Shown piece after piece: positions 48,938 to 64,000 of a DNA stretch of 64,000 nt; positions within the stretch are counted from its first letter, which is position 1; each line of letters starts with the position of its first letter. The notes beneath the pieces are model-generated. The model was not told where the DNA came from and made no database searches. It saw nothing but the letters and a program-made list of their open reading frames with translations. Origin of the DNA: Antrihabitans stalagmiti (GTDB lineage Bacteria > Actinomycetota > Actinomycetes > Mycobacteriales > Mycobacteriaceae); the NCBI RefSeq assembly GCF_016482825.1, contig NZ_JAEMNV010000003.1, positions 124,001 to 188,000 of the forward strand, in the 5' to 3' direction. The translations under genes and the position numbers were made by a program.

Positions 48938-49885
48938 TCACTTGTTGGGCACTGCCACTGCGACACGGGCCGGACCACCGTCCGGGAACACTGTGAGCAG
49001 GATGTTCATGATCGAGCCGAGATCGACTCGAAGCGGTCGGAGTTGCGATGTCGCGGGTTTGACGACCGTCGATACCAACGCAAGATCGGGCGCAAGAAGT
49101 GCGAGGTACTCGCCGATCTTTGCTACCAGAGGTCCGATCGGGTGATCCCAGACGTGCTCGGCGACGTGGGAGTATTCCTCGAATTCTTGGATGATCTGAA
49201 CACCGTTGGGAGTCAGAGCCGAGACCACAGGCGTCGTGTCACCGAGCACACTGCCGTAGCCGTCGAAGTTGTCGCCGAGTGTCTGCAGGTTGACGTAGAG
49301 CCGCGTGATCGGGTCCTTCTTGTCCTGCAGCATCTGCGCGAACATCATGGTCGCCCGGCTCAGGTTTGCTATGTCGGCCTCACGCCCCTTGTTGCCGACG
49401 GACACCGTGGTTACCAGCCGTTCCAAGGTTGCTGCATCCAATTGTCCAGTCAGCGAATCGATTTTGGTCAATGTGTCGCTGACTGTCGCGGATGCCTTCA
49501 CCTGCGTTGCAGGAACAATCGCGCCGTCGCCGAGATAGGGTCCGTCGGCGGACGGTGGCCGGAAATCGAGGTACTGCTCGCCCGCGGCAGACAGATTGCC
49601 GATCCGTACTTCGCTGTCGACCGGGATCGGGTAGGCCGCGTCCACCTCGATCTCCACCGCAAGGCCGTCGGCTGTTGTCGAAATCTGCCGTACGCGGCCG
49701 ATTTTCATACCTCTCAGGTCGACTTCGGAGGTCTCCATCAGACCGCCCGACGAGTCGACGAGGACGGTGATCGTGTTCGTGTCCCGTCGCGGATCGATGT
49801 CGAGGACCGCAACGGCCATGTAGGCCGAACACACCAACGTCATTGCGAGCAGCATGACTAGCGAGACAGGTGCCGGAATCTTCAT
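48938..49885 (-). CDS. mceF: MceF of mce operon 2
   Basis: 315 residues. Anchor VSLVMLLAMTLVCSAYMAVAVL at the start, MCE domain with MKIGRVRQISTTADGLAVEIEVDA and GEQYLDFRPPSADGPYL, then helices. Lacks the long mycobacterial MceF tail. Overlaps mceE by 4 bp. Confidence 0.93.
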   Translation of the reverse strand: MKIPAPVSLVMLLAMTLVCSAYMAVAVLDIDPRRDTNTITVLVDSSGGLMETSEVDLRGMKIGRVRQISTTADGLAVEIEVDAAYPIPVDSEVRIGNLSAAGEQYLDFRPPSADGPYLGDGAIVPATQVKASATVSDTLTKIDSLTGQLDAATLERLVTTVSVGNKGREADIANLSRATMMFAQMLQDKKDPITRLYVNLQTLGDNFDGYGSVLGDTTPVVSALTPNGVQIIQEFEEYSHVAEHVWDHPIGPLVAKIGEYLALLAPDLALVSTVVKPATSQLRPLRVDLGSIMNILLTVFPDGGPARVAVAVPNK

Positions 49886-50874
49886 CTCACAACCCCGATC
49901 GAACGCAGGATCTGGATAAGGTGATCAGCTTGCGCCGAGGCGTCGATGTGAATGTTCGGTGTGGTCGAGAGGAAGGGAATGAGCTTGTCTCGCAACAACT
50001 GATTGGTCTTGTCGATATTCATCGGAACCGTTGTGTCGGCGTTGCCTATCGTCACCAGCGCCGGTGCGATGACAGCAATAATGTCGCGGAGGTCGCCCGA
50101 TATCGGAACAAGGATGTCACCGAGCGGTTGCGCCAGGTCCCTCAGCCGAAAGATCAACTCGACGACGCCGAACACGACGCCGCTGAGTCCCTCTGCACGT
50201 GCCGGACCGTACTGCAGCATCTGGTCGACACGCTCCTTGTTCGCCGCCAGATCGGTCGAGATCGACGCCGCCGAATCGAGAATGTTGTCGATATCGTCGG
50301 TGTTGACCGTCAGATCGCGCAGAGCGCTCTGACCTGCGACGAATATCCGTTGAAAGTCTTCGTCCGTCGCAGGGAAGGCCGAATTGAACTGATTGACGAC
50401 ATCCTGCAATTGCGCGAGCCGTCCACCGGACACGATGCTCGACATTCCGCGAAGTAGATCCTCGATATTGTCGGCCGGTGCGGTCTGCGCTCTCGGGATG
50501 GTGTCACCGTCGGCGAGGTAGGGTCCCGACGAGTTGTCCGGGGGCTGCAGCGACACGTAGATCTCGCCGAGAATTGTCGCCTGGCGCAACTCTGCACGGG
50601 TCGAGACAGGAAGGCGGACAGCGCTTTGCAGGTCGACCGCTGCGACAGCGGAATCGCCGACCAGATCGACGCTGTCTACTATGCCGACCTCCACTCCCTC
50701 GGATACAACCTTCGCTTTGTCGGGAAGGTTCAGTGCGCTGGAGAACTCGACGCGCACCGAGTATTTGTCGCCGTCCACGTAGGTGCCTGGAATCGGCAGT
50801 TCCGCGGGGTTGAAACCGCAACCGGCGACGCCGATTACGACCAACGCGAGTGTTGGTGCGAGTCGCTGTTTCAT
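49882..50874 (-). CDS. mceE: MceE lipoprotein of mce operon 2
   Basis: 330 residues. Signal peptide LALVVIGVAGC with lipobox VAGC (Cys19). The MCE domain starts YVDGDKYSVRVEFSSALNLPDKAKVVSEGVEVG. GPYLADGDTIPRAQTAPADN closes it. The GFNPAELPIPGT stretch right after the Cys is typical of the LprK type. ATGA overlaps with mceD and mceF. Confidence 0.95.
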   Translation of the reverse strand: MKQRLAPTLALVVIGVAGCGFNPAELPIPGTYVDGDKYSVRVEFSSALNLPDKAKVVSEGVEVGIVDSVDLVGDSAVAAVDLQSAVRLPVSTRAELRQATILGEIYVSLQPPDNSSGPYLADGDTIPRAQTAPADNIEDLLRGMSSIVSGGRLAQLQDVVNQFNSAFPATDEDFQRIFVAGQSALRDLTVNTDDIDNILDSAASISTDLAANKERVDQMLQYGPARAEGLSGVVFGVVELIFRLRDLAQPLGDILVPISGDLRDIIAVIAPALVTIGNADTTVPMNIDKTNQLLRDKLIPFLSTTPNIHIDASAQADHLIQILRSIGVVR

Positions 50875-51929
50875 CGCGGCACCGCCTGACCGAGAAGCAA
50901 CGAAAGCAGGTCGACCTGAGTCTGTTGGCCGTCCCGGCGAACTTCGATCTGCGGTGGTAGATACTGCACGCGAACGGCATTCGAGACCGGGTCGAACATT
51001 GCGAGCAGATCCCGCGACGCCTGGGGAAGATAGGCGAGGAGATCGCGGATATCACCAGCGCGGCTGAGCAATTGGTGTGCGAATGGAATCGCTTTGTCCA
51101 GGAACGTATAGGACTGCTCGTCGTACTTGTCGATGGTCCTTGCCGCGACCGGCAGCAGCTCGTTCACTCGTGCAATTGCTGTGCCGAGTCCCTGGACAAC
51201 GCCGTCCACCGTTTCGAGACCGTTCCCGAGGTTGTCCAGCAGCGTGCGGAAATCGGGCCAATTGGTGACGAACATGGTTGTCAGGCGGTCGAGGTTGTCG
51301 ATGAGTCGCCGGACCGTTACGTCGCGACCCGCCGGATCGCCGACCAACGTCGACAAACGCCGCAGCAATGAATTGAACGTCGGACCGGTGTCGACGAGCG
51401 CCGCGTCGAGTGAGTTGAGGGTGTCCGAAAGGATCGGATCCGGCTGTGTCGCTGGAGTTCCCGCCGCTGTCTTGGTACCGAGCAGGTCTGCAGCGACGGT
51501 GTTGACCGCGTCGAACGTCTCGCTGATACCGATCGGCGTACGGGTGCGGTCGAGTGGGATGCATTGTGCAGCAACAAAACGGGGCCCGTCGCGGTGTATG
51601 CCGGTGAGCTCGACATGCCGATCGGTGACGATCGAGCTGGACATGGTCACTGCACCGACATCTGCGGGAAGATCGATGTCGTCGTCGACCTTCATCGTCA
51701 CCCGCATTCGGTCGCCGACTGGTTCGATCGCAGTGACACTGCCGATCTCGATGCCCATGAGGCTGACGTTGTTGCCCTCGTACAGCCCGACCGTGTCCGT
51801 GAACTCCGCGCACAGGGTTTTCGTCGAGTAGAGATCGACGCTGTTTGCCGCGGAGGTCGCTGCCCCACTGAGGACCACGACAGCAACTGCGGCGAGGGCG
51901 ACATAGGTGAGCTTTCGACGGTCTGCCAT
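50871..51929 (-). CDS. mceD: MceD of mce operon 2
   Basis: 352 residues from ATG 51929, one nucleotide after the mceC stop. Anchor YVALAAVAVVVLSGAATSA, then the MCE domain (DTVGLYEGNNVSLMGIEIGSVTAI, SSSIVTDRHVELTG), then helical needle segments. Ends VDLLSLLLGQAVPR, close in form to the MceD tail of operon 1 (PLAQLLLGIAGAR). Confidence 0.93.
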   Translation of the reverse strand: MADRRKLTYVALAAVAVVVLSGAATSAANSVDLYSTKTLCAEFTDTVGLYEGNNVSLMGIEIGSVTAIEPVGDRMRVTMKVDDDIDLPADVGAVTMSSSIVTDRHVELTGIHRDGPRFVAAQCIPLDRTRTPIGISETFDAVNTVAADLLGTKTAAGTPATQPDPILSDTLNSLDAALVDTGPTFNSLLRRLSTLVGDPAGRDVTVRRLIDNLDRLTTMFVTNWPDFRTLLDNLGNGLETVDGVVQGLGTAIARVNELLPVAARTIDKYDEQSYTFLDKAIPFAHQLLSRAGDIRDLLAYLPQASRDLLAMFDPVSNAVRVQYLPPQIEVRRDGQQTQVDLLSLLLGQAVPR

Positions 51930-51930
51930 G

Positions 51931-52953
51931 TCAGCAGCCCTTCGCTGCGGTCGGAATGCAGAGGCCTGTGCCGGTGATCGTGTTGGCAGACTGATCGATG
52001 GTGACACCGTCGATGCCGAGCATCCCCGAGATCTTTGCCATGAACTCCTTGATGCCGCTGATGACGTCGTCGATCTTGCCCTGGTCCGAGAACACCTTCT
52101 GCACAACTGCTTCGAGATCGGCGATCGGCGGCTCGAGTCCCTCCGCGTAGGCCATGACCGGACGGTGCACGACATCGGCAAGTCGACGCAGGAGCTGGAA
52201 GGTCTGCACTACATCGGCTTTCTGGGAACCTAGTTTCACCGCGACGATCCCGAGTTGTCGGACGAAGTCGGCAAGGATCGCCTGGTCGTCGGCAATGGCG
52301 GCGACAAACTCGTCGGAGACTGCGAGTCCCTTGTCGAGTTGGTCCGAGCGTTGCGCAAGAACCCCAGTCAGGTCGTTCACGTTGGTCAGCAGGTTGCGAA
52401 TCGAATCGGGTTGGCCCGCGATCGCGTTGTTGACCTCGGTGATCGTTGCGCGCAAAGTCTGGCCGTCGACGTCGCGCAGTACGGGTGTGGCGTCCTGGAG
52501 GATGTCGGTGATCTCGTACGGAGTCCGGGTGCGTTCCGGTGGTATGTGATTCGTGCCGAGGTCGTTGTCGCCGTCCGGTGACAGCGACAGGTAGTGGCCA
52601 CCGATCGGTGTGAGCATCTTGATCTCCACGGCGGAAAGATCGCCTACGTGTGTGTCTCGGTCGACACTGAAGCGAATCTCTACGTGGTCGTCGGCCAAGC
52701 GCACCGATTCGACTGCGCCGACCTTGATTCCGGCGACGCGGACCTCGTTGCCGCTGCGCGCACCTGCGGCGCTGGAGAAGTCGGCGACGTAGGTCTTGGT
52801 GCCGAACGGAACGAGATAGATGACGGCGCTCGCGGCGAGGGCGAGGATCGCGACGACGATACCGATTACACCCCAACGGAGTTGGGTCTGTGCCTCGTCC
52901 TCAGCGGTTCGGCGGGTCCTGATCGTGTGCTTGCGGATCGTCAGCTTCGTCAT
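51931..52953 (-). CDS. mceC: MceC of mce operon 2
   Basis: 340 residues from ATG 52953, which gives an ATGA overlap with mceB; an in-frame GTG at 52959 would recreate the 10-bp overlap seen in operon 1. Basic N-terminus (RKHTIRTRR), anchor VIGIVVAILALAASAVIYLV, MCE domain (GARSGNEVRVAGIKVGAVESV, IGGHYLSLSPDGDND). Ends GLCIPTAAKGC with the paired-Cys tail of MceC. Confidence 0.93.
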   Translation of the reverse strand: MTKLTIRKHTIRTRRTAEDEAQTQLRWGVIGIVVAILALAASAVIYLVPFGTKTYVADFSSAAGARSGNEVRVAGIKVGAVESVRLADDHVEIRFSVDRDTHVGDLSAVEIKMLTPIGGHYLSLSPDGDNDLGTNHIPPERTRTPYEITDILQDATPVLRDVDGQTLRATITEVNNAIAGQPDSIRNLLTNVNDLTGVLAQRSDQLDKGLAVSDEFVAAIADDQAILADFVRQLGIVAVKLGSQKADVVQTFQLLRRLADVVHRPVMAYAEGLEPPIADLEAVVQKVFSDQGKIDDVISGIKEFMAKISGMLGIDGVTIDQSANTITGTGLCIPTAAKGC

Positions 52954-53945
52954 TTGCACACCACCAGGCTTTGGTTCCCGAGTACGACGTTGCCGATTCC
53001 GGGGATGTCCGCGCCGCCGCTCGTGCAGTTGTAGCTCGCGGCGTCGGTACGACTGTCGAGACCACTCAGCAACGACGGCACGAGCGACAGAATCTCGACC
53101 AGTTGGTCGGCGCGGGGAGTGAGTCGTCTGAACAATCCGTCGAGCGGGAGATAACTCTGGTCATAGCTGTCCTGCAACTGCTCGAGCAGTTCGACAGCCG
53201 GCTGGAGCGCGCGATTGGCAGTCTTGGTCGAGACAACGATTTCGTCTGCCTTGGTACTGAATCTGCTGAGCAAGCTGCCGAGCTGCTCGACGAGATCGCC
53301 TACCTGCGCCGATTTTCCGGCTATCTGGTTGGAGATTTCGCCGAGATTCTTTATGAGTAGCACGATTACGGCCTCGCGGTCCTTTGCATACTTCGTCAGG
53401 CTGTCCAAGTCCGCGAGGACAGGGCCGATCCCGGCACCATCGCCCTGGAGAACTCGAAGGATGTTTTCTCCGAACCGATTGAGCTGTGCCGAGTCGAGTG
53501 TGTCGAACAAGGGCCGAAAGCCGTTGAACAACTTGGACACATCGAAACTCGAGATCGTGCTTTCGAGCGGGAAGGTGTAATCGCTTTCGACCGGTGCGTC
53601 CGCGCTTTCCGGTTGGACAAGTTCGATGTAGCGCTGTCCCAACAGGTTCTGATAGCGAATCGCGGGTTGCGTCGTGCGGAACACCGGTCGATCCGTCTGC
53701 ACCGTGAATCGCACTCGCGCAACGACGCCGTCGAGTTCGACAGTCTCGACCTTTCCTACCTGCACGCCCGACATTCGGACGTCGTCACCTGCGAACAGAC
53801 CCGACACGTCGGCGAACAAGGCGTCGTATTCGAATTGCTTGCCCTCCACCGGTGTTCTGAGGGCAGTGACGATGACGACCGTGCATGCGGTGACAACTGC
53901 GACGAAGATCGTCAGCCGCACGACGGCAGCACGGAGGGTCATCAT
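52950..53945 (-). CDS. mceB: MceB of mce operon 2
   Basis: 331 residues from ATG 53945 (a second ATG follows directly). Anchor VVRLTIFVAVVTACTVVIVTAL, MCE domain with GLFAGDDVRMSGVQVGKVETV, then helices. Ends GNVVLGNQSLVVCK with the usual terminal Cys. ATGA overlap with mceA. Confidence 0.94.
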   Translation of the reverse strand: MMTLRAAVVRLTIFVAVVTACTVVIVTALRTPVEGKQFEYDALFADVSGLFAGDDVRMSGVQVGKVETVELDGVVARVRFTVQTDRPVFRTTQPAIRYQNLLGQRYIELVQPESADAPVESDYTFPLESTISSFDVSKLFNGFRPLFDTLDSAQLNRFGENILRVLQGDGAGIGPVLADLDSLTKYAKDREAVIVLLIKNLGEISNQIAGKSAQVGDLVEQLGSLLSRFSTKADEIVVSTKTANRALQPAVELLEQLQDSYDQSYLPLDGLFRRLTPRADQLVEILSLVPSLLSGLDSRTDAASYNCTSGGADIPGIGNVVLGNQSLVVCK

Positions 53946-54970
53946 TTCGGCACTCCGACAATCGAATTCACCAGATAGGGCATGTCCTTCGAGATCAGTT
54001 CGAGCTGCAACTGCACTCGGCCGTCGACAACAGGGAACGCGGCACCGATCCGCTCGAGCAGTTGCGGCAGTCGGTGATATGTCGGCGCGACGGTGCCTAT
54101 CGAAGCCGCGATCGGTATCACCAGGTCAAGGAGGGTGTCGACGATGGTCGAGATGTCGGTCTGGTTGTCACTCAAGATGACCGCAAGCGGGGTGAGCGCT
54201 TGATCCGCCAGACCCGAGATCGCCTTGTTCGTTCGATCCTGGTTTGCTGTCTCGCCGAAATACGCGCTTGTGTCCAGTAGTCGAGCAATAAGGTCGACGA
54301 CGGGTGGCGTGAGTTCGGTAGCGCCTGCGCCGACTTCGCCGCCGATCCTCAGGTATTCCGCAACAGGTGCGCGCTTGTTGTCCGCAAGCAACTTCGCGGT
54401 TTCGAAGAAGGCCCGAACCGTTGGACCGAGTGTTTCCGTGTTGGTTATCAGCAGATCGAAGAGCTGGTCGACCTCGTCAGTGTCGAGCACCCGGGTCAGC
54501 TGTCCGGCCTTGCGGAACACGCTGGTTATGGTTGCGTTCGCGCTGTTCTCACCGATGTGCAGTGTCGCGCCCTCGGCGAGCGGAGCACCTCCGCCGCGGT
54601 TGACGAGTTCGATTGCGGTCGAACCGAATACGTTCGACGAGGTGTACTGCGCCGTCACATCGTCGGTCAGGTGCTCGGCTTGGGATCGATCGAGGGAGAG
54701 CTCCAACTGCTGGTGGCCGAACCCGAGCGTGTCGATCTGCGTGACCTTTCCGATTGCGAAGCCGTACAACTTCACCTCGGCGCCGGGGGCTAGACCCTCC
54801 CCTACTGTCGATGCGTCGATCCAGACGGTGAACCGGTCGCTGAACTTGCCGTCGCTGTATGCGGAGAGAGCGACCGCTGCGACCGCGACTACTGCTGCGA
54901 CAGCGAGGCCACGGAGCCGCAGCGAGGCTCGACCTGCTGCTCGACCCGAGAAGTCTTGGAATACAGGCAC
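53942..54970 (-). CDS. mceA: MceA of mce operon 2
   Basis: 342 residues from GTG 54970, 2 nt after the yrbEB stop. Anchor RLRGLAVAAVVAVAAVALSAYS, MCE domain with GLAPGAEVKLYGFAIGKVTQI and SSNVFGSTAIELVNRG, then a long helical part. The start is set by the tight packing; no ATG is available nearby in frame. Confidence 0.92.
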   Translation of the reverse strand: MPVFQDFSGRAAGRASLRLRGLAVAAVVAVAAVALSAYSDGKFSDRFTVWIDASTVGEGLAPGAEVKLYGFAIGKVTQIDTLGFGHQQLELSLDRSQAEHLTDDVTAQYTSSNVFGSTAIELVNRGGGAPLAEGATLHIGENSANATITSVFRKAGQLTRVLDTDEVDQLFDLLITNTETLGPTVRAFFETAKLLADNKRAPVAEYLRIGGEVGAGATELTPPVVDLIARLLDTSAYFGETANQDRTNKAISGLADQALTPLAVILSDNQTDISTIVDTLLDLVIPIAASIGTVAPTYHRLPQLLERIGAAFPVVDGRVQLQLELISKDMPYLVNSIVGVPK

Positions 54971-54972
54971 AG

Positions 54973-55848
54973 TTACCCCGAAATCCTGATTCCGGAGTCG
55001 AGTCCCCAGAAGATGAGTGTCATCACCATGTCCGCGATGACGACGCCGATCAGACTGGCGCGGATCGCGCGTCCCGAAGCACGGCCGACGCCCTCTGGCC
55101 CGCCGCTTGCGTAAAAGCCTTGGTAGCCATGAATGATGATGATCATCACGACGAATACGACCGCTTTGACGATCGAGAAGAACACGTCGGACGGCGCGAT
55201 GAAGGCACCGAAGTAGTGGTAGTACGTTCCAGACGACTGACCGTGCAGCACGTTCACGACGACAGCGCACGAGAGGTAGCTCAGGATCAAGGTGAGCAGA
55301 AACAGCGGGACAATGGTGATGACACCCGCAATGACCCGGGTCGTCACGACGAACGGAATCGGCCGTACCGCAGTCGCTTCCAGAGCATCGATCTCCTCGG
55401 AGATACGCATCGCGCCGATCTCTGCGGTCATTCGGCAGCCCGCTTGAGCTGCGAATCCGATTGCGGCGATCATCGGTGCCATCTCACGGGTATTGGCGTA
55501 TGCCGAGACGAAGCCCGTCAGCGGACCCATGCCGACCATGTCCAGCGTCGAGAAGCCCTCGACGCCGATCGATCCGCCGACCGCCACGCCGAGAAATGCA
55601 AGTACCGCAACGGTTCCGCCGCCGACGATGATCGAACCGTTGCCCCAGGTGATGTCGGTGAGGATGAGCATCGTCTGGCGTCGATACGACCGGATGGTGT
55701 GTGGCACCGCAACGAGTACCTGCCAGGCGAACGTGAACTGGTGTCCCAGGTGCTCCGCGACGTTTGCGGGCGATCGAGCGATCTTGGCCGCAGCGTCGAC
55801 AACGTGTTTGGTGCCGTACGGCCGCACCTTCGCCGTCGTATCGATCAC
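54973..55848 (-). CDS. yrbEB: YrbE/MlaE-family permease of mce operon 2 (YrbEB)
   Basis: 291 residues from GTG 55848, 2 nt after the yrbEA stop. Coupling motif MTAEIGAMRISEEIDALEAT, membrane runs VITIVPLFLLTLILSYLSC and VIADMVMTLIFWGL, and the usual GFYASGGPEGVGRASGRAIRAS before the last helix. The N-terminal 60 residues are soluble. Confidence 0.95.
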   Translation of the reverse strand: MIDTTAKVRPYGTKHVVDAAAKIARSPANVAEHLGHQFTFAWQVLVAVPHTIRSYRRQTMLILTDITWGNGSIIVGGGTVAVLAFLGVAVGGSIGVEGFSTLDMVGMGPLTGFVSAYANTREMAPMIAAIGFAAQAGCRMTAEIGAMRISEEIDALEATAVRPIPFVVTTRVIAGVITIVPLFLLTLILSYLSCAVVVNVLHGQSSGTYYHYFGAFIAPSDVFFSIVKAVVFVVMIIIIHGYQGFYASGGPEGVGRASGRAIRASLIGVVIADMVMTLIFWGLDSGIRISG

Positions 55849-55850
55849 GA

Positions 55851-56681
55851 TCAGCCGATCCTGGTTGGCATGAACATCGAAACAAGCTGAGTAATAACCA
55901 GATTGACGCCGAATGCGGCCATCACTCCGATGACCACGGCGGCGTTGACGGCATTGGCAACGCCCTTGGGTCCGTGGGTGGCCTCCAAGCCGCGCTGGCA
56001 GGCAACGATCACGACGATCACGCCGAAAAGGATCGATTTTGCCAGGGCGACAAAGAGATCGGAGATCGTTGCGAACGACGCGAAGGAGGAGAGGTAGCTG
56101 CCGGGCGTTCCGCCCTGTGCGCCGACATTGATGAGGTAGCCGGTTCCTACCCCCATGAACACGATGACGAGGCAGAGCAGCGGCGCCATCGCTGCCATCG
56201 CCGCGAGCCGTGGCGCGACGAGCCTGCGGACGGGATCGATTCCCATCGTCCTCATGGCGTCGATCTCCTCGCGGATGGTTCGGGCGCCGAGGTCGGCGGC
56301 GATCGCTGATCCCGCGGCACCGCCGAGAAGCAGGGCCGCGACAATCGGTGCGCCCTGCCTGATGACGCCGAGTCCGCCTGCAGCGCCTGCGATCGACGTC
56401 GCGCCGACCTGCTGCGTGAGGCTACCGACCTGCACGGAAACGATCACTCCGAACGGTATGGAGACCAGCACGGCAGGAAAGGCGGTCACGCTGACGATGA
56501 ACCACGCCTGCAGCAGCGTCTCTCGCAGGGGATGTCGAAGCCGCACCGTGTCGACGGCGAGGTAGATGCCTGCGTCGAGGCCGAGTCGGAGCGCTCGACC
56601 GACAGTGCGGGTCGCCGACAGACCGAGATCGATGCCCCAGCGGAGCGTCCGAGCAGGAGTCCGGGCGAGCGTGTCGAGCAT
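55851..56681 (-). CDS. yrbEA: YrbE/MlaE-family permease of mce operon 2 (YrbEA)
   Basis: 276 residues from ATG 56681 with GAGGGG upstream; the frame is open further but covers the promoter. Membrane segments IVSVTAFPAVLVSIPFGVIV and MAPLLCLVIVFMGVGTGYL; coupling motif ADLGARTIREEIDAMRTMGI. First gene of mce operon 2. An operator-like 16-bp dyad lies 82 bp upstream at 56763-56778. Confidence 0.95.
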   Translation of the reverse strand: MLDTLARTPARTLRWGIDLGLSATRTVGRALRLGLDAGIYLAVDTVRLRHPLRETLLQAWFIVSVTAFPAVLVSIPFGVIVSVQVGSLTQQVGATSIAGAAGGLGVIRQGAPIVAALLLGGAAGSAIAADLGARTIREEIDAMRTMGIDPVRRLVAPRLAAMAAMAPLLCLVIVFMGVGTGYLINVGAQGGTPGSYLSSFASFATISDLFVALAKSILFGVIVVIVACQRGLEATHGPKGVANAVNAAVVIGVMAAFGVNLVITQLVSMFMPTRIG

Positions 56682-56762
56682 GGACGCGCCCCTCTTTCCT
56701 CGAGTGATGTCAGTTACCGACGCAACAGCCGTCGGGCGATGTGAAACGTAGCACATTAATCG

Positions 56763-56778
56763 GACTGATTCATCAGTC
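56763..56778. promoter_or_regulatory. Regulon operator, site 1 (mce operon 2)
   Basis: GACTGATTCATCAGTC: perfect 6-bp arms around 4 nt. ATTAAT precedes it with a 2-nt gap on the plus strand (56755-56760), and ATTAATCG recurs at 56783. The same dyad, with ATTAAW at identical spacing, occurs at 60830 and 62271, upstream of other minus-strand genes. ATTAAT may form part of the -10 element for the minus-strand promoter. Confidence 0.75.
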
Positions 56779-56915
56779 TTGTATTAATCGCTCCGATCCC
56801 AGGCGAAGCCAATCATCAGAAGAAAGTTGGATTTCTCGCTACGCTGCAGGTCGTAGGCACCGCCGAGTCTGTGATAGCGCGATCGTGAGTAGGAATGCCA
56901 CGATCGCGCGTGCGA

Positions 56916-58316
56916 TCACCGACCCGCGCCGATCGCCTGGCCGACGAGTGCCTGCGCCGCCGCGGGCAAGATTGCTGCGAGTCCTGGTCCGAACTGCGGA
57001 TCGTTCACGAGCGTCTGTGGGCTCGTGCTCGAGCAGCCTGCAGGTGCGGGAACACCCTCCAGTCGATCCTTGAGCCAGTAGAAGCCGCTCGGCAACTGAG
57101 TGAAGACGCCGGAGATATGTTCGGCGAGGAACTCTCGGACGTAGGTCACGCTCGATGCGCCTTCGTTGCAGTACTTCTCGTAGATGCGGTCGGTGCCTGC
57201 GATCGGGATGATCTCGTCGTTCTGAGCGTGATACATGAACACGGGCACCGACGGGGTGCGCTGACCGAGCGAGTTGTCCATGATCGCGTGTTTGATCTCG
57301 GGGATGAGCAATGGATCGGCACCCTGGAATGTCCCGAGGTAGTTGAGGCCCGGGAAGACTGCCGTTCCCATCGGGTGGCACAGGAATTTTTTCGAGGCGA
57401 GGACGAACTGGCCGACGATGTCGACCCGCTCGCGTAACACTCGTTGCATGTCCGGGTACTCGGTGGCGATTCCGACGAACGCGCCGCTGATGAGTCCCGC
57501 ATACAGACCGTTGTTGTTATGCCGCACAACGGCTTCGAAGTCTGCGGCAGCGACGCCGCCCGATGCTGCACCTACGATGTTCAAGTCCGGTGCGTACTCG
57601 TCTTTGATCTCGGCGGCGAATGCGGTTGGAATGGTGCCGCCGGAGTAGCCCCACAGGGCTGCCGGGGTCGACGGACCGCTCAGCTCCGATGGAGCGAAGT
57701 TTTCCGCGGCACGGATCCCGTCGAGTGTGGCTTGGGCGCCGAGGCGCGACGCGCCATACGCCGAGTTGGGGCCCTCGTAGTCGGGCATCGCCACGGTCCA
57801 GCCCTGACCGAGGCCTGCCGCGATGGGGATGAGAATCTCGGCAGCGTTGACGTAGTCGGCCGGGATCGCGCCGGACTGGACGACGTACGACGGCGCGCAG
57901 TATTGCGCGGCCGAGTCCTCGGCTATCTGATAGGACAACAGTTTTCGTCCGCCGGCAGGTGCCGGTCCACGTGGGGTCAGGATCGTGGTGACGGTCGCGA
58001 TCGGCTGGCCCTGGCTGTTGTTCGTGCGGTAGAGCAACTGATGCGCGTCGACGTCCATGTGCAGGATGCCGAAGAATGCTGGCAGGATCGCGCGCGCCCG
58101 CAGAATTTCACCGGGTTCGGCATCGGCAACCAGACCAGCTGCTGGTCGATAGAACTCGTCGAACTCTGGCGGAAGGGTCACGGCGGGTGCGGGTTCGATC
58201 GCTACCGCGGAGGGCGCTGGATCGGCGTCCGCGACCAGACCGGACATCAGGGTCGTCAGCAACGCGGCCGCGGCGCCACATACGAGGAGGCGAGTCGATC
58301 TACGGGCAGTCATCAT
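56916..58316 (-). CDS. Secreted lipase of the secretory-lipase family (PF03583-like)
   Basis: 466 residues from ATG 58316. Signal peptide 1-32 (LLVCGAAAALLTTLMSGLVADADPAPS). Nucleophile elbow ALWGYSGGTIPTAFAAE, acid in YHAQNDEIIPIAGTD, His in FLAEHISGVF. AGLGQGWTVAMPDYEGPNSAYGASRLGAQATLDG is the family's typical region before the Ser. Secreted or cell-wall-associated release of fatty acids; placed directly upstream, in the direction of transcription of neither, between mce operon 2 and fadD. Ends 235 bp before the yrbEA start. Confidence 0.92.
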   Translation of the reverse strand: MMTARRSTRLLVCGAAAALLTTLMSGLVADADPAPSAVAIEPAPAVTLPPEFDEFYRPAAGLVADAEPGEILRARAILPAFFGILHMDVDAHQLLYRTNNSQGQPIATVTTILTPRGPAPAGGRKLLSYQIAEDSAAQYCAPSYVVQSGAIPADYVNAAEILIPIAAGLGQGWTVAMPDYEGPNSAYGASRLGAQATLDGIRAAENFAPSELSGPSTPAALWGYSGGTIPTAFAAEIKDEYAPDLNIVGAASGGVAAADFEAVVRHNNNGLYAGLISGAFVGIATEYPDMQRVLRERVDIVGQFVLASKKFLCHPMGTAVFPGLNYLGTFQGADPLLIPEIKHAIMDNSLGQRTPSVPVFMYHAQNDEIIPIAGTDRIYEKYCNEGASSVTYVREFLAEHISGVFTQLPSGFYWLKDRLEGVPAPAGCSSTSPQTLVNDPQFGPGLAAILPAAAQALVGQAIGAGR

Positions 58317-58457
58317 CGAAGGCTTTCTTTCGGGGGAGACGCCGCCACATCACGACGTTGCATGTGCGGGCCGTCACAACTGGCATAACGGTAATTTAGA
58401 TTTTCAGATTGTCAATGCACTGAGCCAATAGGGGCATCGGGTCGAAAAGAGGGCTAG

Positions 58458-60083
58458 CTACAACTGCCGAAGCAGCCGCGGAACCACCTTTCCCGTCGGA
58501 TTGCGGGGTAGGGCGTCGATGAAGTGAACTTCCCGTGGCACGCTGAATCGCGCCAGGCTCTGCTTAACCGCAGACTTGACGGATTCTTCTGTGGGAGTAT
58601 CGGATTCGGAGTCGGAGCGGACGACGAAGGCGACCAGCCGTTGCCCGAATTCTGGATCCGGAACGCCGATCACCGCGACCTCACGTACGCCGGGTAGTTC
58701 GGTGATAAGCCGCTCGACCTCTTGCGGATAGACGTTCTCGCCACCGGAAACGGCCATGTCGTCGGCCCGTCCGGCTAGGAAGAGGAGTCCATTCGAATCG
58801 AGTCGTCCGAGGTCGCCCGTATCCATCAGCCCGTCGATGACCTGTTTCGACTCGCCCGCACGCGTGTACCCGTCGAACAACATCGAGTTTCCGACGAATA
58901 CGCGACCGACGGTTCCCGACGGAACTGGACGGCCGTCGTCGCCGAGTATCGCCAGCGTGGTCCCGAACGGTGCCCTGCCGGAGGTAGTCGGATGCGCTGC
59001 AAGCTCTTTGGGTGTCGCAATCGAGGCGAACGACACCTCGGTACTGCCGTAGATGTTGTAGAGCGTGGGTCCGAATCGCCTCAGGGAGCCAACTACGACG
59101 GGTGCTGGAATTGCAGAACCGCACGCGATGATCGCGCGCAGCGTAGATGTATCAGCCGCTTCCAGTTCGTCTTTCGGTAGTTGAAGTATTCGACCGAGCA
59201 TGATCGGGACGACGAACAGCGAGTCCACTCGATGCTTCGCTATCGCGTGCAGTGCTGCAGCGGGATCGAACTGCCGCTGCAACACTGCGGTCGAGCCCAT
59301 CGCGACGGCGCTCATCAACGCACCGAAGCCCCACGAGTGAAATACCGGAGCGCAGATGAGGTCGATGCTGCCTGCACGCAACGGAATTCGCGACAGCAAC
59401 GCTGCTGCCGCGAGTGGATTGCGCGGTGCACTTCGTTTCGCACCTTTCGGTGTGCCCGTCGTGCCGGAGGTCAAGATGATGGAACGACCGACCCGCGGCC
59501 GGAAGGGCAAGCGCGTATTGGACCGGGATGCAACAAGTTCCGCGATTGTCGGAATGTTCGTCCCGAGGCGCGGCGCGTCCGATGGTGCCCAGGCTTGAAC
59601 TACCTTCAGACCCGGTAGGCCCGCGGTCTCGGAGAAGTCGGCATCGACGATGAGAACGTCTGCCCGCTGCTCGCGTAACACTTCGGTGAGCTGACCGCCC
59701 GCAAGACCGGTATTCATCAGAATGTGGTCGGCGCCGATCCGCCCGGTAGCAACAACCGCTTGCAGAAAGCCTCGGTGATTGCGGCACAGAATCGCGACCC
59801 GGCTGGTGGCATCCACGCCGCGACTCGCGAGTGCCTTTGCAAGCGCGGTGCTTTCGTCGTCGAGCGTGCGATAGGTGATCGCTCCGTCGTCGTCGATCAG
59901 CGCGACTCGGTGCGGGAAGCGTCGTGCGCCTACAGCGAGAGCAGCGGCGGGAGTGACGTCCCATCGCAATGCTGCAACGCCCATCTTCGCCAATCGTGCA
60001 GGCGAGGACGGGCGGAGCGCACCGGACCGGATGACCGGTCCAGCGGCTCGGGCGAGCCCGAATGCTGCGCTGAAGGGCTCCAC
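58458..60083 (-). CDS. fadD: FadD-type acyl-CoA synthetase (AMP-binding)
   Basis: 541 residues from GTG 60083, 1 nt after the stop of the 226-residue gene. P-loop ILTSGTTGTPKGAKR, YGSTEVSFAS, DTGDLGRLDSNGLLFLAGRADDM, SGGENVYPQEVE, and catalytic Lys in LPRNPTGKVV: all ANL motifs are complete. Activates fatty or other lipid acids to acyl-CoA. Its operon is preceded by regulon operator site 2, which ties it to mce operon 2, so it may activate what that system imports. Confidence 0.93.
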   Translation of the reverse strand: MEPFSAAFGLARAAGPVIRSGALRPSSPARLAKMGVAALRWDVTPAAALAVGARRFPHRVALIDDDGAITYRTLDDESTALAKALASRGVDATSRVAILCRNHRGFLQAVVATGRIGADHILMNTGLAGGQLTEVLREQRADVLIVDADFSETAGLPGLKVVQAWAPSDAPRLGTNIPTIAELVASRSNTRLPFRPRVGRSIILTSGTTGTPKGAKRSAPRNPLAAAALLSRIPLRAGSIDLICAPVFHSWGFGALMSAVAMGSTAVLQRQFDPAAALHAIAKHRVDSLFVVPIMLGRILQLPKDELEAADTSTLRAIIACGSAIPAPVVVGSLRRFGPTLYNIYGSTEVSFASIATPKELAAHPTTSGRAPFGTTLAILGDDGRPVPSGTVGRVFVGNSMLFDGYTRAGESKQVIDGLMDTGDLGRLDSNGLLFLAGRADDMAVSGGENVYPQEVERLITELPGVREVAVIGVPDPEFGQRLVAFVVRSDSESDTPTEESVKSAVKQSLARFSVPREVHFIDALPRNPTGKVVPRLLRQL

Positions 60084-60084
60084 G

Positions 60085-60765
60085 TCAGGCGGTCAGTTCG
60101 AGGGTGCCACGCGGATTCCACGGCATCGGCCCGGTCGGAAAGCTGAACCGCAGCAACCGATGTGAGTTGTCGGCTTCGAAATGTGCGACGAAGGGCGGCA
60201 GGAAGCCTGCGATGACCTTGTCGAGCAGGCCGTTGATATGACTGAATCCCGGCCGGATGCGGACCTGCCAGGCGTCGAAGCTGCCTGCCGTGATGTCCAC
60301 CCTTGTGCGCTTCTCGATCTTGACCTCGAGCGGCCAGTAGATCGAAAACGCAAGCCAGATGTTGTGTTTGGACTTCGCGCCCTTGGTGAAGTCGAGTCCC
60401 CGCAACAGGGTCAGTCCGCCGATCAGCGGCATGACACCCTTCGGGAACGGCTGGAGTTCGCCGCCGAACTGCAGGTGTTGGGTGTCGACGAAGTAGCCCT
60501 CTTCGCGGGTGACCAGTTTGCCGTCGAAAAAGCTTGCCGCTTTGTAACTTTCGGCGTGAATCCGGCCGCCTTCGCGGCGGAATCGTTGCTCGACCTGCAT
60601 CGAGAGTTGATCTTTGACCCCGGCTTCGACCGCCGAGACGTACGAGGCGCCGTCGTGCTCGACGATGCTCGATACCTCGTACATCGTTGGGTCGTCCCCG
60701 ACCCGAATTCCGTAGACCGACTTCTCGCCGTCGGCTATGTCGGGGTCGCGGAAGGGACTGGTCAT
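60085..60765 (-). CDS. Hypothetical protein co-transcribed with fadD
   Basis: 226 residues from ATG 60765, chosen for AGGAG at good spacing. I do not recognise the family. The sequence alternates short beta-like strands (TMYEVSSIVEHDGASYVSAVEAG, LSMQVEQRFRREGGRIHAESY, HNIWLAFSIYWPLEVKIEKRTRVDI) and has no signal peptide, consistent with a beta-barrel or lipocalin-like lipid-binding fold (speculative). First gene after operator site 2, which lies 65 bp upstream. Confidence 0.7.
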   Translation of the reverse strand: MTSPFRDPDIADGEKSVYGIRVGDDPTMYEVSSIVEHDGASYVSAVEAGVKDQLSMQVEQRFRREGGRIHAESYKAASFFDGKLVTREEGYFVDTQHLQFGGELQPFPKGVMPLIGGLTLLRGLDFTKGAKSKHNIWLAFSIYWPLEVKIEKRTRVDITAGSFDAWQVRIRPGFSHINGLLDKVIAGFLPPFVAHFEADNSHRLLRFSFPTGPMPWNPRGTLELTA

Positions 60766-60829
60766 TGCGTTCTCCTGAGCGGTATCGAGCACTGCCACGG
60801 CTGCGGGGCAAGCATCAGCTGATTAAACC

Positions 60830-60845
60830 GACTGATGTATCATTC
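60830..60845. promoter_or_regulatory. Regulon operator, site 2 (226-aa gene and fadD)
   Basis: GACTGATGTATCATTC: 6-bp arms with one mismatch around 4 nt. ATTAAA precedes GACTGA with the same 2-nt gap as ATTAAT in site 1. It overlaps the stop codon of the ADCK-type gene (60840-60842) and lies 65 bp before ATG 60765. Confidence 0.72.
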
Positions 60846-62225
60846 GTCAAATATTCGTGAGCTTTCCCACTCGGCATGAGCGGTGCCGAGCGTGGTCTGT
60901 GGCGGATCGTCGTAGACCCACTCTCTGGCGATTCGATGCCAGTTGTTCGTTGCGCCGAGCTGACCGAGGACGCCGAACGTGAGAAACTCCGCTCTCCTGG
61001 AGAAGATGTGCTCGGGCGGCAGGTTCTGATGCCGCATGCCGGAGAACTCGGAGATTCGCGGATCTATCGCGAGCAACATGCTCCCACTCGCCATCGCGGG
61101 AGTTATCTCGATCGATTCGTCGTTCAGGTGCCAGCCTGCGGCTCCGTAGACGTAGTCGAGGCACTCGTCGATCGACACCCCTGCGTCGGCGTTGATCACG
61201 CCCCTGCGCACCATCAGATCGAAAAGGTCCTGGCTGCGGTTCTCCGATGCGGCACGGAGGCATTGCTTCTCGAAGTCGACGTGGACGGGATCCATCTTGT
61301 TGTAGAGCCCGAAGTCGATGAAGCCGACCTTTCCGTCCGAGCCGAGCAGGATATTTCCGGGGTGTGGATCACCGCAGAACTCGCTGTAGCTGAACATCGA
61401 ACCGATGTAGAACCGGTAGATAATCTCGCCCACTCGATCTCGATCCTGTTGCGGCAGTGCGCGAATCGCGTCGAAAGGTTGTCCGTCGAACAGCTCGGTC
61501 ACAACCACACGCCGACCGCTGGCTGCCGGAACGCTGTCGGGTACCGCGATGAACGGATGGCCTGCGAACAGCTGCGCGAGCTTGTGCTGTGTACGGGCTT
61601 CGCGCTCGTAGTCGAGCTCGCTCTCCATGTTCAGCTTGATCTCTCGTGCGAGTTCGGGAGCGGCAACAGTGGGGATCGTCGAACGCCAGAACTTGAGAAA
61701 CATGGCGAGGTTCTTCATGTCGGCACGGATCGCGATGTCGATGCCGGGGTACTGCACCTTGACCGCCACGCGACGTCCGTCGTGGAGTCGGGCGCGATAC
61801 ACCTGGCCTATGGAGGCCGCCGCGATCGGCACTTCGTCGAACTCGGCAAACACGTCGCTGATGCTGCGCGCCAGGTCGTCTTCGATGATCTTCCGCATTG
61901 CGTCGAACGAGACCTTGGGTGCCTGATCGCGCAGCACCGCGAGCTTGCGCTGAAAGTGCTCGCGATGGGATTCCGGAACGAGATCGAGGTCGATCACCGA
62001 GAGCATCTGCCCGATCTTCATCGCCGCGCCCTTCATGCTGCCCAGCACGGTGACGAGTTGATCGGCGGCTTGCAGCACTGCCTTCTCCGAGATCCTGGCC
62101 TTCGCCTCATCGGAGCGCCCGAGCATGGATGCACGTGTGCCCGCATTGCGTAGGGCCTGGCCAGCGGCTGCCTTCCCGATCTTCGAGCCGCGCGCTACTC
62201 GGGAGGTCGGTACTCGGTCGTTCAT
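60840..62225 (-). CDS. ADCK/UbiB/ABC1-type atypical kinase
   Basis: 461 residues from ATG 62225. Atypical kinase hallmarks in order: KxGQ-region MKGAAMKIGQMLS near residue 67, AAASIGQVYRA (the Ala-rich loop replacing the P-loop), VAVKVQYPG (the conserved Lys), ELDYEREA (ExD), CGDPHPGNILL (catalytic loop) and GFIDFGL (DFG). Members support ubiquinone and other prenyl-lipid metabolism through ATPase or lipid-handling activity. Preceded by operator site 3. The target lipid here is unknown. Confidence 0.92.
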   Translation of the reverse strand: MNDRVPTSRVARGSKIGKAAAGQALRNAGTRASMLGRSDEAKARISEKAVLQAADQLVTVLGSMKGAAMKIGQMLSVIDLDLVPESHREHFQRKLAVLRDQAPKVSFDAMRKIIEDDLARSISDVFAEFDEVPIAAASIGQVYRARLHDGRRVAVKVQYPGIDIAIRADMKNLAMFLKFWRSTIPTVAAPELAREIKLNMESELDYEREARTQHKLAQLFAGHPFIAVPDSVPAASGRRVVVTELFDGQPFDAIRALPQQDRDRVGEIIYRFYIGSMFSYSEFCGDPHPGNILLGSDGKVGFIDFGLYNKMDPVHVDFEKQCLRAASENRSQDLFDLMVRRGVINADAGVSIDECLDYVYGAAGWHLNDESIEITPAMASGSMLLAIDPRISEFSGMRHQNLPPEHIFSRRAEFLTFGVLGQLGATNNWHRIAREWVYDDPPQTTLGTAHAEWESSRIFDE

Positions 62226-62270
62226 ATGGACCCTTCGGTAGCCCCATGTGCCGTGCTATCGCATTAATTA

Positions 62271-62286
62271 GACTGACGTGTCACTC
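62271..62286. promoter_or_regulatory. Regulon operator, site 3 (ADCK gene / 113-aa membrane gene)
   Basis: GACTGACGTGTCACTC: 6-bp arms with one mismatch around 4 nt; ATTAAT precedes with a 2-nt gap as in site 1. It lies 46 bp before the ADCK ATG (62225, minus) and 74 bp before ATG 62360 (plus), so it can serve both divergent genes. Confidence 0.73.
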
Positions 62287-62359: not shown

Positions 62360-62701
62360 ATGAACGGACGCAAACGCAAGGCCAAGCAAGCACTCGTGTC
62401 AGGCAGGGCATCGAAAACCCCGGTCGTGCTCAAGGTACGCACCCCCGACAGTCTGCCCGCACGGGTGATCGGGCTCGGCCTTGCGGGAACGGGCGCCGCG
62501 CACTTCACAGCGCCGCGAGCTTTCGACACCCTCACCGCCACTGCATTTCCGGAGAAGACACGCCAGTGGACCTACCGAAACGGGTTCACCGAACTGCTGC
62601 TCGGCCTGGCCATCACCTTCCGCCGGACGCGTCCGGTCGGTGCGATTGGCTCGGTTGCCTACGTGGCGTTCCTAGCGAATCGTGTGTCTTCGCAACGCTG
62701 A
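62360..62701 (+). CDS. Small membrane-associated protein (113 aa)
   Basis: ATG 62360 with GAAAGGA upstream. Basic N-terminus (NGRKRKAKQALVSGRASK), then hydrophobic stretches (VIGLGLAGTGAAHFTAP, GFTELLLGLAITF, IGSVAYVAFLANRV). The GxxHFxxP...RNGFTELLLG layout recalls DoxX-like membrane proteins, but the family is not certain. Divergent from the ADCK gene across operator site 3. Confidence 0.7.
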   Translation: MNGRKRKAKQALVSGRASKTPVVLKVRTPDSLPARVIGLGLAGTGAAHFTAPRAFDTLTATAFPEKTRQWTYRNGFTELLLGLAITFRRTRPVGAIGSVAYVAFLANRVSSQR

Positions 62702-62772: not shown

Positions 62773-63450
62773 GTGACGGGCGACACGACAGACGCCGACG
62801 TGGTGCGCCCACGCCGCGGAAGACCCAAGCAGGAGGGCCTCGCCGAACGCCGTCGAGAGCAGATCGTCCAGTCTGCGTATCACGTTTTTGCCGCCAACGG
62901 CTACGAGTCGACGACCATCTCCGACGTCGCACGGCATGCGGGTGTCGGACAGGGCACGGTCTACCGGTACTTCGAGAGCAAGCGCGAAATTCTCGACCAC
63001 GTCTTCGATTACGCGGCGGGACAGTTCGTCGGCGTGATCATGACCGATGATCTGATGAGACCGATCGACTCGCTCGACGAATTCTCGGATCGACTGGTCG
63101 ATATCGCGAAGCGAATGGCTGCAACGCTCGAAGTTCAGCCGGATCTGTTGAAGCTGATCCTGGTCGAGGCAAGCGCGGCAGATGCCGAATTGAACGCGCG
63201 CATGCTCGGGTTGGAAGGGTTTCTCGCAGAGGCGATCGCGCGCGTCATGCAAGACGGCCAGGAGAAGGGCTGGGTACGCGCGGAGGTCGACACCGCGATG
63301 TACAGCCATTACGTCATCGCTCTCGTGATGCCGGGTGTGCGGCACGCGATTCTGGGCACCTTGACGCCGACGGTGAGCGATCGGTTCGCGACCGCAACGG
63401 TCGCCATACTTGCCGCGGCCCTTCGCGTTCCCGAGACCACGGCATCATGA
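62773..63450 (+). CDS. TetR-family regulator, first of an overlapping pair
   Basis: 225 residues from GTG 62773. HTH TISDVARHAGVGQGTVYRYFESKREILDHV near residues 48-78, preceded by an AT-hook-like RPRRGRPKQ. The C-terminal half ends TPTVSDRFATATVAILAAALR. Its stop overlaps the next TetR start by 4 bp. The closest regulator gene to operator sites 2 and 3, so a prime candidate for binding them. Confidence 0.9.
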   Translation: MTGDTTDADVVRPRRGRPKQEGLAERRREQIVQSAYHVFAANGYESTTISDVARHAGVGQGTVYRYFESKREILDHVFDYAAGQFVGVIMTDDLMRPIDSLDEFSDRLVDIAKRMAATLEVQPDLLKLILVEASAADAELNARMLGLEGFLAEAIARVMQDGQEKGWVRAEVDTAMYSHYVIALVMPGVRHAILGTLTPTVSDRFATATVAILAAALRVPETTAS

Positions 63451-64000
63451 CCGCGCAGGAAGCCGTTGATCGGCTGGAAGCACGCCGAGCCGACCTGGTG
63501 CACGCAGCGTCGGATCTGATTCTGAGCAAGGGCTACCGGAACACGTCGGTGGCGGACATCGTCAGCGCGCTCGGCTTGAGCCACGGCACGTTCTACAACT
63601 ACTTCGACAGTAGACGCGACGTGCTCGACGCCGTTATCGACTACGGCAGCCAACGACTCGCCGATCGGCTCGTCGGGTCGGACGATCCGGGTTCAGCGAC
63701 CACCCTCGACGACTTTCTCGCACAGCTGGACCGCATCAACAGACGACTGCACGAGTTGGTTGCCGACGAGCCGCGGCTGGTGCAGTTCATCGTTTTCGAA
63801 GCTGCCTCGATCGACCAGGAGCTCGTGCAGCGCATGCTGACGGCGTATCAGGGATTCGTCTCCTCGAACCGGAGCTACGTCGAGAACGGTATCGAAAAGG
63901 GTTTTCTCCGTAGTGATCTCGACTCCGAGGTGGCAAGCGAAGCGCTGTTGACGATGTTGCTGTCGAGTACGGTCGGCGCGCTCGGCGGGCAAGGTGTCGC
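63447..64000 (+). CDS. TetR-family regulator, second of an overlapping pair, cut by window end
   Basis: 184 residues are visible from ATG 63447; the C-terminus runs past the window. HTH NTSVADIVSALGLSHGTFYNYFDSRRDVLDAV near residues 32-62. The ligand domain begins DDFLAQLDRINRRLHELVADEPRLVQFIVFEAASIDQELVQRML, similar in spacing to the preceding TetR (LKLILVEASAADAELNARML), so the two look like diverged duplicates that could form heterodimers. Confidence 0.88.
   Translation, partial: MTAQEAVDRLEARRADLVHAASDLILSKGYRNTSVADIVSALGLSHGTFYNYFDSRRDVLDAVIDYGSQRLADRLVGSDDPGSATTLDDFLAQLDRINRRLHELVADEPRLVQFIVFEAASIDQELVQRMLTAYQGFVSSNRSYVENGIEKGFLRSDLDSEVASEALLTMLLSSTVGALGGQGV

Follow-up and report, generated by a model that had tools for sequence, protein, structure and literature searches.

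A 16-bp dyad as the proposed operator of a tandem TetR pair linking mce import to lipid-modifying genes in Antrihabitans and its relatives

Three dyads and the genes they precede

The window analysed here, a 64-kb stretch of the Antrihabitans stalagmiti contig NZ_JAEMNV010000003.1 (positions 124,001 to 188,000), carries an operon for an mce lipid importer (mce operon 2), genes for a FadD-type acyl-CoA ligase and an ADCK-type kinase, and two adjoining TetR genes, here TetR1 and TetR2. A 16-bp dyad, GACTGA-N4-TCANTC, precedes the first three of these, and we propose, at a probability of roughly 80% and on the strength of comparative genomics, that a repressor made up of two TetRs uses it as operator to control the import and oxidation of lipids. 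Exact matches to this pattern lie at 56763, 60830 and 62271 and nowhere else in the window. Dyad 1 (GACTGATTCATCAGTC, 56763..56778), a perfect palindrome and the proposed operator of the mce operon, stands 82 bp from the start used for yrbEA, the first gene of that operon, whilst dyad 2 (GACTGATGTATCATTC, 60830..60845), the proposed operator of the X226-FadD operon, is 65 bp from its minus-strand start. Dyad 3 (GACTGACGTGTCACTC, 62271..62286) separates the minus-strand ADCK gene, whose start is 46 bp off, from a plus-strand gene for a small membrane protein, 74 bp off, which itself precedes the TetR pair. Each dyad has an AT-rich hexamer at a gap of 2 nt: ATTAAT at 56755-56760 and at 62263-62268, and ATTAAA at 60822-60827. 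The original prediction, made from the letters of this DNA, had described the dyads, this constant spacing and the distances of 46-82 bp to the start codons, and had assigned the sites to the mce permeases, the 226-aa/FadD pair and the kinase with its divergent neighbour; all of this is borne out by the sequence.

The gene yrbEA (55851..56681, minus strand) encodes an MlaE-type permease (PF02405, E=5.6e-62), as does yrbEB (54973..55848, minus strand; PF02405, E=6.9e-60), and this permease pair in two adjacent open reading frames (ORFs) is in keeping with an mce/YrbE importer. The mceA-mceF ORFs of the same operon occupy 48938..55270 on the minus strand, with approximate boundaries and some overlong starts; their labels are given by gene order, which protein matches show to be the same in relatives. 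Behind dyad 2 lies X226 (60085..60765, minus strand), a protein of 226 aa that appears to be a remote DUF3108 relative (PF11306, E=0.16); its Amycolatopsis homologue matches PF11306 at E=2.4e-5 and 24.7 bits, for a cut-off of 26. A structure prediction for X226 was set aside as too poor, with a predicted local distance difference test (pLDDT) score of 39, and its all-beta AlphaFold outline is not used as evidence. The FadD-type acyl-CoA ligase follows at 58458..60083 (minus strand; PF00501/PF13193). The atypical kinase of the ADCK/UbiB type (60840..62225, minus strand) has an ABC1 kinase-like domain (PF03109, E=2e-60) and scores below the NCBIfam cut-offs for UbiB and MABP-1. On the plus strand, the small membrane protein (62360..62701) is weakly DoxX/MauE-like, at E-values of 0.02-0.05 that are below the cut-offs. 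TetR1 (62773..63450, plus strand; helix-turn-helix GVGQGTVYRYF) and TetR2 (63447..64000, plus strand; helix-turn-helix GLSHGTFYNYF) both carry the TetR_N helix-turn-helix above the PF00440 cut-off (E=3.1e-16 and 8.3e-13, respectively) and thus belong to the TetR family. Their reading frames share an ATGA overlap, and TetR2 continues beyond the window to a total of 206 aa.

Promoter architecture and a model of repression

The hexamers beside the dyads are best read as the -10 boxes of the target genes rather than as part of the operator, with the dyad filling the promoter spacer, to judge from their fixed spacing across 57 distinct site-target pairs. In the direction of the gene, the dyad is followed after 3-8 nt by an element resembling TTAAAT, with A at +5 in 37 of these pairs, A at +6 in 40 and T at +8 in 36. 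In the window, ATTAAT at 56755..56760 is thus the probable -10 box of the yrbEA promoter and that at 62263..62268 the probable -10 box of the ADCK promoter (both minus strand). The X226 promoter, in minus-strand reading, offers a -10-like TTTAAT (60822..60827) and a -35-like TTGACG (60845..60850), 17 nt from the former and overlapping the last base of dyad 2.

Does a regulator in this position repress or activate? Some members of the TetR family do activate transcription (FasR is named an activator by NCBIfam), but because the site falls between -35-like and -10-like positions, a bound protein should exclude polymerase; we therefore favour repression and consider it very unlikely that the TetR pair is an activator. 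A TetR1-TetR2 repressor bound in the spacer would keep RNA polymerase from transcribing the mce and X226-FadD operons and ADCK; from dyad 3 it would also act in the opposite direction, on the small membrane protein and the pair's own genes. Two distal promoters with the same site, those of an HSL-type esterase and an MPAB/Lcp-type oxygenase, would come under the same control. A lipid or acyl-CoA imported or produced by the pathway would probably release the repressor, as the partner genes point to such an inducer, and the genes that import one class of lipid, activate it with coenzyme A, oxidise it and hydrolyse its esters would then be induced together. The sites and their conservation, their place beside a -10-like element, the tandem gene order and the fusions are observed; binding by the TetR pair, repression, ligand and pathway are features that we infer here.

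Specificity in the genome

Genome-wide, exact matches to the loose pattern occupy eight distinct places: the three in the window, C43:115620, C44:231651, C23:502840, C23:502894 and C23:369929. The last of these falls within a 370-aa ORF, whilst C23:502840 and C23:502894 adjoin a paralogous TetR gene. The window, C43 and C44 sites have the inner letters YNYR in common, which gives a refined core, GACTGAYNYRTCANTC. This core is found at five places in the genome, 26-82 bp upstream of the starts used, and its mirrored control (the pattern read backwards) at none. Outside the window, it precedes the genes of the HSL-type esterase (C43) and the MPAB/Lcp oxygenase (C44); the C43 site counts as upstream only with an internal ATG (L028:7572), as the longest ORF, with a GTG start, would span it. 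A one-mismatch dyad also abuts the start of a flavin monooxygenase gene at C43:334226 (L216), a possible sixth target. The restriction to the core was chosen after the matches were known, and the core was therefore assessed in other genomes. It occurs four times in Antrihabitans sp. YC2-6 (G002) and four times in A. stalactiti (G003). A further genome of the same genus (G001), which like the other three Antrihabitans genomes shows no mirrored match, has no core match and no TetR1 match at 1e-22.

Two GACTGA-N4-TCA[TG]TC dyads, 54 bp apart, lie at C23:502840-502909 (L030:4841-4910) next to a TetR gene that shares 32% identity with TetR1; they differ from the core in their inner letters, which suggests a related regulator with a similar operator. 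Could such a paralogue (C23:444517, C23:502988 or the one at C44), or some other unlinked regulator, bind the dyads of the window? C23:502988 has those two dyads beside it, so that relatives may share half-sites, and the C44 site adjoins another TetR gene. Neither C23 dyad matches the YNYR core, however, and the neighbour of the site in one genus after another is TetR1-TetR2, which makes this alternative unlikely.

Conservation across relatives

All three window sites are kept at orthologous positions in YC2-6, those of X226 and of ADCK and the small membrane protein intact and that of yrbEA with one mismatch. At the X226 locus of YC2-6 no FadD match was found, so that, of the 'FadD operon' in the original prediction, it is X226 and not FadD that appears to be the conserved target. 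YC2-6 also has a distal site (L072), in front of a further member of the C43 esterase's family (38% identity).

We then considered 77 loci, namely 80 TetR1-homologue loci minus the very weak matches L204-L206; homologues of the small membrane protein are present in 15 of them. At thresholds of 16, 18 and 20, a matrix built from the three window sites alone finds 67 sites in 45 of these loci, 49 in 37 and 9 in 7, against 1, 0 and 0 matches in their mirrored sequence. A matrix built from 14 Antrihabitans sites, applied to the 75 loci of other genera, finds 74 sites in 51 loci, 69 in 49 and 53 in 40 at the same thresholds, with one mirrored match at each (1.48 Mb). An earlier matrix, part of whose training set came from some of these loci, gave 76 matches versus 1 at threshold 18, where none of 200 column-permuted matrices equalled it; at threshold 15, two of the 200 did. 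The dyad stands beside homologues of the TetR pair across 11 genus names, and many Nocardia loci carry the perfect palindrome GACTGACACGTCAGTC. Two of the records, titled 'Kitasatospora arboriphila' (L170; a Williamsia-like locus) and 'Bifidobacterium breve' (L192; a metagenome-assembled genome), may be mislabelled or contaminated.

A census at threshold 18 covered 83 sites in 82 loci (the 77 plus L028, L029, L032, L071 and L072), and a recognised gene start lies within 260 bp of 63 of the 83. By target, with divergent sites entered twice, yrbEA leads with 27 cases, spread over Nocardia (21 of its 26 loci), the two Amycolatopsis loci, two mycobacteria, the window and YC2-6. HSL-type esterases follow with 16, monooxygenases with 8, ADCK with 7, TetR1 with 6, and X226, the small membrane protein and SDR with 3 each, whilst the C44 gene pair contributes one count each. 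In relatives, then, flavin monooxygenase and esterase genes are also preceded by dyads. No site fell inside a recognised gene, amongst those genes with a reference protein.

To our knowledge, the cargo of many mce importers is still an open question. Regulators offer a way into it, as co-regulated enzymes indicate the class of substrate. Here, one operator would connect an mce operon with genes for an ADCK kinase and a DUF3108-like protein as well as for flavin monooxygenases and HSL esterases, in loci from 11 genus names, Nocardia and non-tuberculous mycobacteria among them, yielding a testable regulon and a candidate class of ligand.

The TetR pair as candidate regulator

A TetR1 match at 1e-22 is present in 72 of 301 genomes of the family. 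In 36 of 37 fetched loci with a TetR1 match, TetR2 directly follows TetR1, the exception being a paralogue in the window's own genome, and in 10 of these 36 tandem loci, all from the Tsukamurella group, the two are fused into one chain of ~450 aa. In Tsukamurella sp. PLM1 (L172) the frame of the fused protein is open back into the ADCK gene (925 aa, with ADCK matching in two pieces), possibly through an assembly error or as a decayed fusion. The recognition helices resemble each other across the loci: GQGT-YRY is typical of TetR1, and HGTFYNY or HGSFYNY of TetR2. A site precedes TetR1 in six loci (A. stalactiti, Nocardia mexicana, N. wallacei, Mycobacterium sp. 1274756.6, Mycolicibacillus koreensis and Tsukamurella ocularis), an arrangement compatible with autoregulation.

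Exact core matches occur in 26 of the 301 genomes; in 10 of these (3 Antrihabitans and 7 others), the contig with the match also carries a TetR1 homologue, no more than ~25 kb away. The core is present in 11 of 37 TetR1-positive genomes (E<2e-33) and in 15 of 264 others (Fisher p=4.7e-5, kinship uncorrected); with the four Antrihabitans genomes left out, the counts are 8 of 34 versus 15 of 263 (p=0.002, likewise uncorrected). The TetR1 cut-off was chosen afterwards, and other cut-offs give values from 6e-5 to 0.002 for the comparison that leaves Antrihabitans out. Taken together, the sites kept in the sister species, the recurrence of the dyad beside homologues of the pair, its absence from paralogous enzyme clusters that lack the pair and the lack of both in G001 argue for one regulon governed by the adjacent TetR pair, as had been suggested at the outset.

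The loose pattern by itself is a poor marker: with up to two mismatches it gives 14 rows in the window, fewer than the shuffle mean of 20.6, and with up to one mismatch it gives 22+26 = 48 matches in the 6.39-Mb genome against 15+11 = 26 mirrored ones. This weak enrichment led us to reject it as a genome-wide detector. Several points weigh against the proposal of a regulon under the TetR pair and have to be set beside it. The C44 site (C44:231651, L029:7652) has the MPAB/Lcp-type oxygenase gene on one side and, on the other, a divergent TetR gene that is not one of the pair. Conservation in the sister species is established for the three window sites and not for the C43 and C44 targets. As the 77 loci were picked by TetR1 homology, co-occurrence with the pair is partly by design, and even so 26 of them have no site at threshold 18: the fetched DNA has none for Tsukamurella in 8 of 9 loci and for Williamsia in 6 of 7, where the helices are nearly unchanged, and it is also absent from 3 of 26 Nocardia, all 4 Rhodococcus and 5 other loci, some on short contigs. 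Lastly, the motif occurs without a TetR1 homologue inside 25 kb in 16 of the 26 genomes that carry it. Many, perhaps most, of these unlinked matches are probably due to chance, since the mirrored control gives 14 matches in 13 of the 301 genomes.

As a side observation, the C44 core match may belong to its divergent TetR neighbour and not to TetR1-TetR2. The four Rhodococcus loci can also be read in favour of the pair, in that their TetR1 helix is changed to GLGT or GMGT where the site is absent.

Could the dyads themselves be a product of chance, a loose 16-mer that three promoters happen to share? With mismatches the loose pattern is indeed near background, but the sites are conserved in the sister species and turn up again in genera held out from the matrices, with hardly a mirrored match, which leaves this explanation hardly credible.

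One TetR or two?

The constant tandem order, the overlap in the window and the fusion suggest that TetR1 and TetR2 act together, in the manner of the two halves of Mce3R within their single chain (PMC11667970). One could go further and posit an obligate TetR1-TetR2 heterodimer, a 'split Mce3R' of independent or ancestral origin, that acts on a palindromic operator and serves Mycobacteriales and some Amycolatopsis as a shared switch for lipid import, tying mce to ADCK and flavin monooxygenases; we would put this bolder version at slightly short of an even bet. As a variant of the two-TetR proposal, a homodimer of one TetR alone may bind the palindrome, with the partner having another role or operator. 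The operator is often a perfect palindrome, as in the many Nocardia loci mentioned above, and in this resembles the sites of ordinary TetR homodimers, which speaks for a symmetric reader, but the genes are tandem or fused throughout nearly all of the loci and both helices are conserved; we regard this variant as a serious contender, albeit one we would sooner bet against. Amongst the unique site-target pairs, with divergent sites taken in both directions, 26 have their better half-site towards the gene and 13 their weaker one, whilst the halves are equal in 7; this is a trend only, which we do not take as proof of a heterodimer. A structure prediction of the fused pair was too poor for use (mean pLDDT 52).

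Comparison with known regulators

Mce3R of Mycobacterium tuberculosis (PDB 9b7y) is described as a double TetR in one chain that recognises nonpalindromic 25-bp sites (PMC11667970), and as controlling an mce operon, lipid genes and its own expression (PMC11667970, PMC2277422). There are likenesses: two TetR units, with predicted sites at the promoters of an mce operon, of lipid enzymes and of the regulator itself, and, in the fused Tsukamurella-group pair, a double TetR in one chain. There are differences too, as the dyad of the window is a 16-bp inverted repeat whereas the Mce3R operator is nonpalindromic and ~25 bp long, and TetR1-TetR2 of the window are two ORFs overlapping by ATGA. The double-TetR plan invites the idea of orthology to Mce3R, which the matches do not support: Mce3R ranks only sixth amongst the PDB matches of each TetR profile, and an alignment of the fused pairs has no match to it at 1e-12. 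One fused protein matches Mce3R at 7e-10, as the second of two, through weak helix-turn-helix pieces. The pair is, by this analogy, a putative counterpart of Mce3R in its working, and falls outside Mce3R proper on operator and gene form. The gradation that nature provides here, from a pair of individual TetR genes to a single fused chain, could serve the study of how asymmetric TetR repressors originate.

Rv3574 (KstR) has been proposed as the mce4 repressor (PMC2277422). Like KstR and KstR2, the pair would be a TetR repressor of lipid catabolism; TetR1 scores 34.7 bits against the NCBIfam KstR cut-off of 280, far below it. KstR and KstR2 are single TetRs with other motifs. The enzymes of the regulon and its surroundings also recall the mymA operon of M. 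tuberculosis, in which a flavin monooxygenase, an SDR, an HSL-type esterase and a FadD stand together; its regulator, VirS, is of the AraC type, and mymA is not known to be joined to mce or ADCK. The best PDB sequence matches of the TetR1 and TetR2 profiles are FadR of Bacillus and relatives (3whb, named as a fatty acid metabolism regulator; likewise 5gp9 and 1vi0). TetR1 and TetR2 score 67.5 and 33.7 bits against an NCBIfam FadR cut-off of 200, and FadR is a single-gene regulator. A search of the open-access literature, covering titles and the openings of abstracts as well as the site strings, found no description of the dyad operator, or of the tandem pair with mce or ADCK.

Neighbouring genes and other observations

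A secretory lipase of the LIP family (56916-58316) separates the mce operon from the FadD operon, and its own upstream region has no dyad. To the right of TetR2 (L032:12137-17690) lie genes for two AurF-type diiron oxygenases, a flavin monooxygenase, an SDR and a 2Fe-2S reductase, a set retained in YC2-6 (L127); a one-mismatch scan of L032 and a matrix scan found no dyad at this operon, and we do not claim it as a target. Paralogous clusters of ADCK, X226, monooxygenase, SDR and reductase in A. stalactiti (L034) and at C44:184000-203000 (L035) have neither the TetR pair nor the dyad, and so represent a second form of this enzyme set that is controlled by other means. A palindrome, GAACGACCTGTCGTTC, seen in four Tsukamurella loci (L190, L195, L197 and L176), was considered as a diverged operator and dropped, as it lies ~5 kb past the TetR pair, and a simple palindrome scan upstream of the monooxygenase found none common to the four Rhodococcus loci. 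Elsewhere in the A. stalagmiti genome, at C2:211560 (L031:5561), a different, AT-rich dyad, TGACTGAAATTTCAGTT, stands in a promoter-like context and is perhaps the operator of another regulator.

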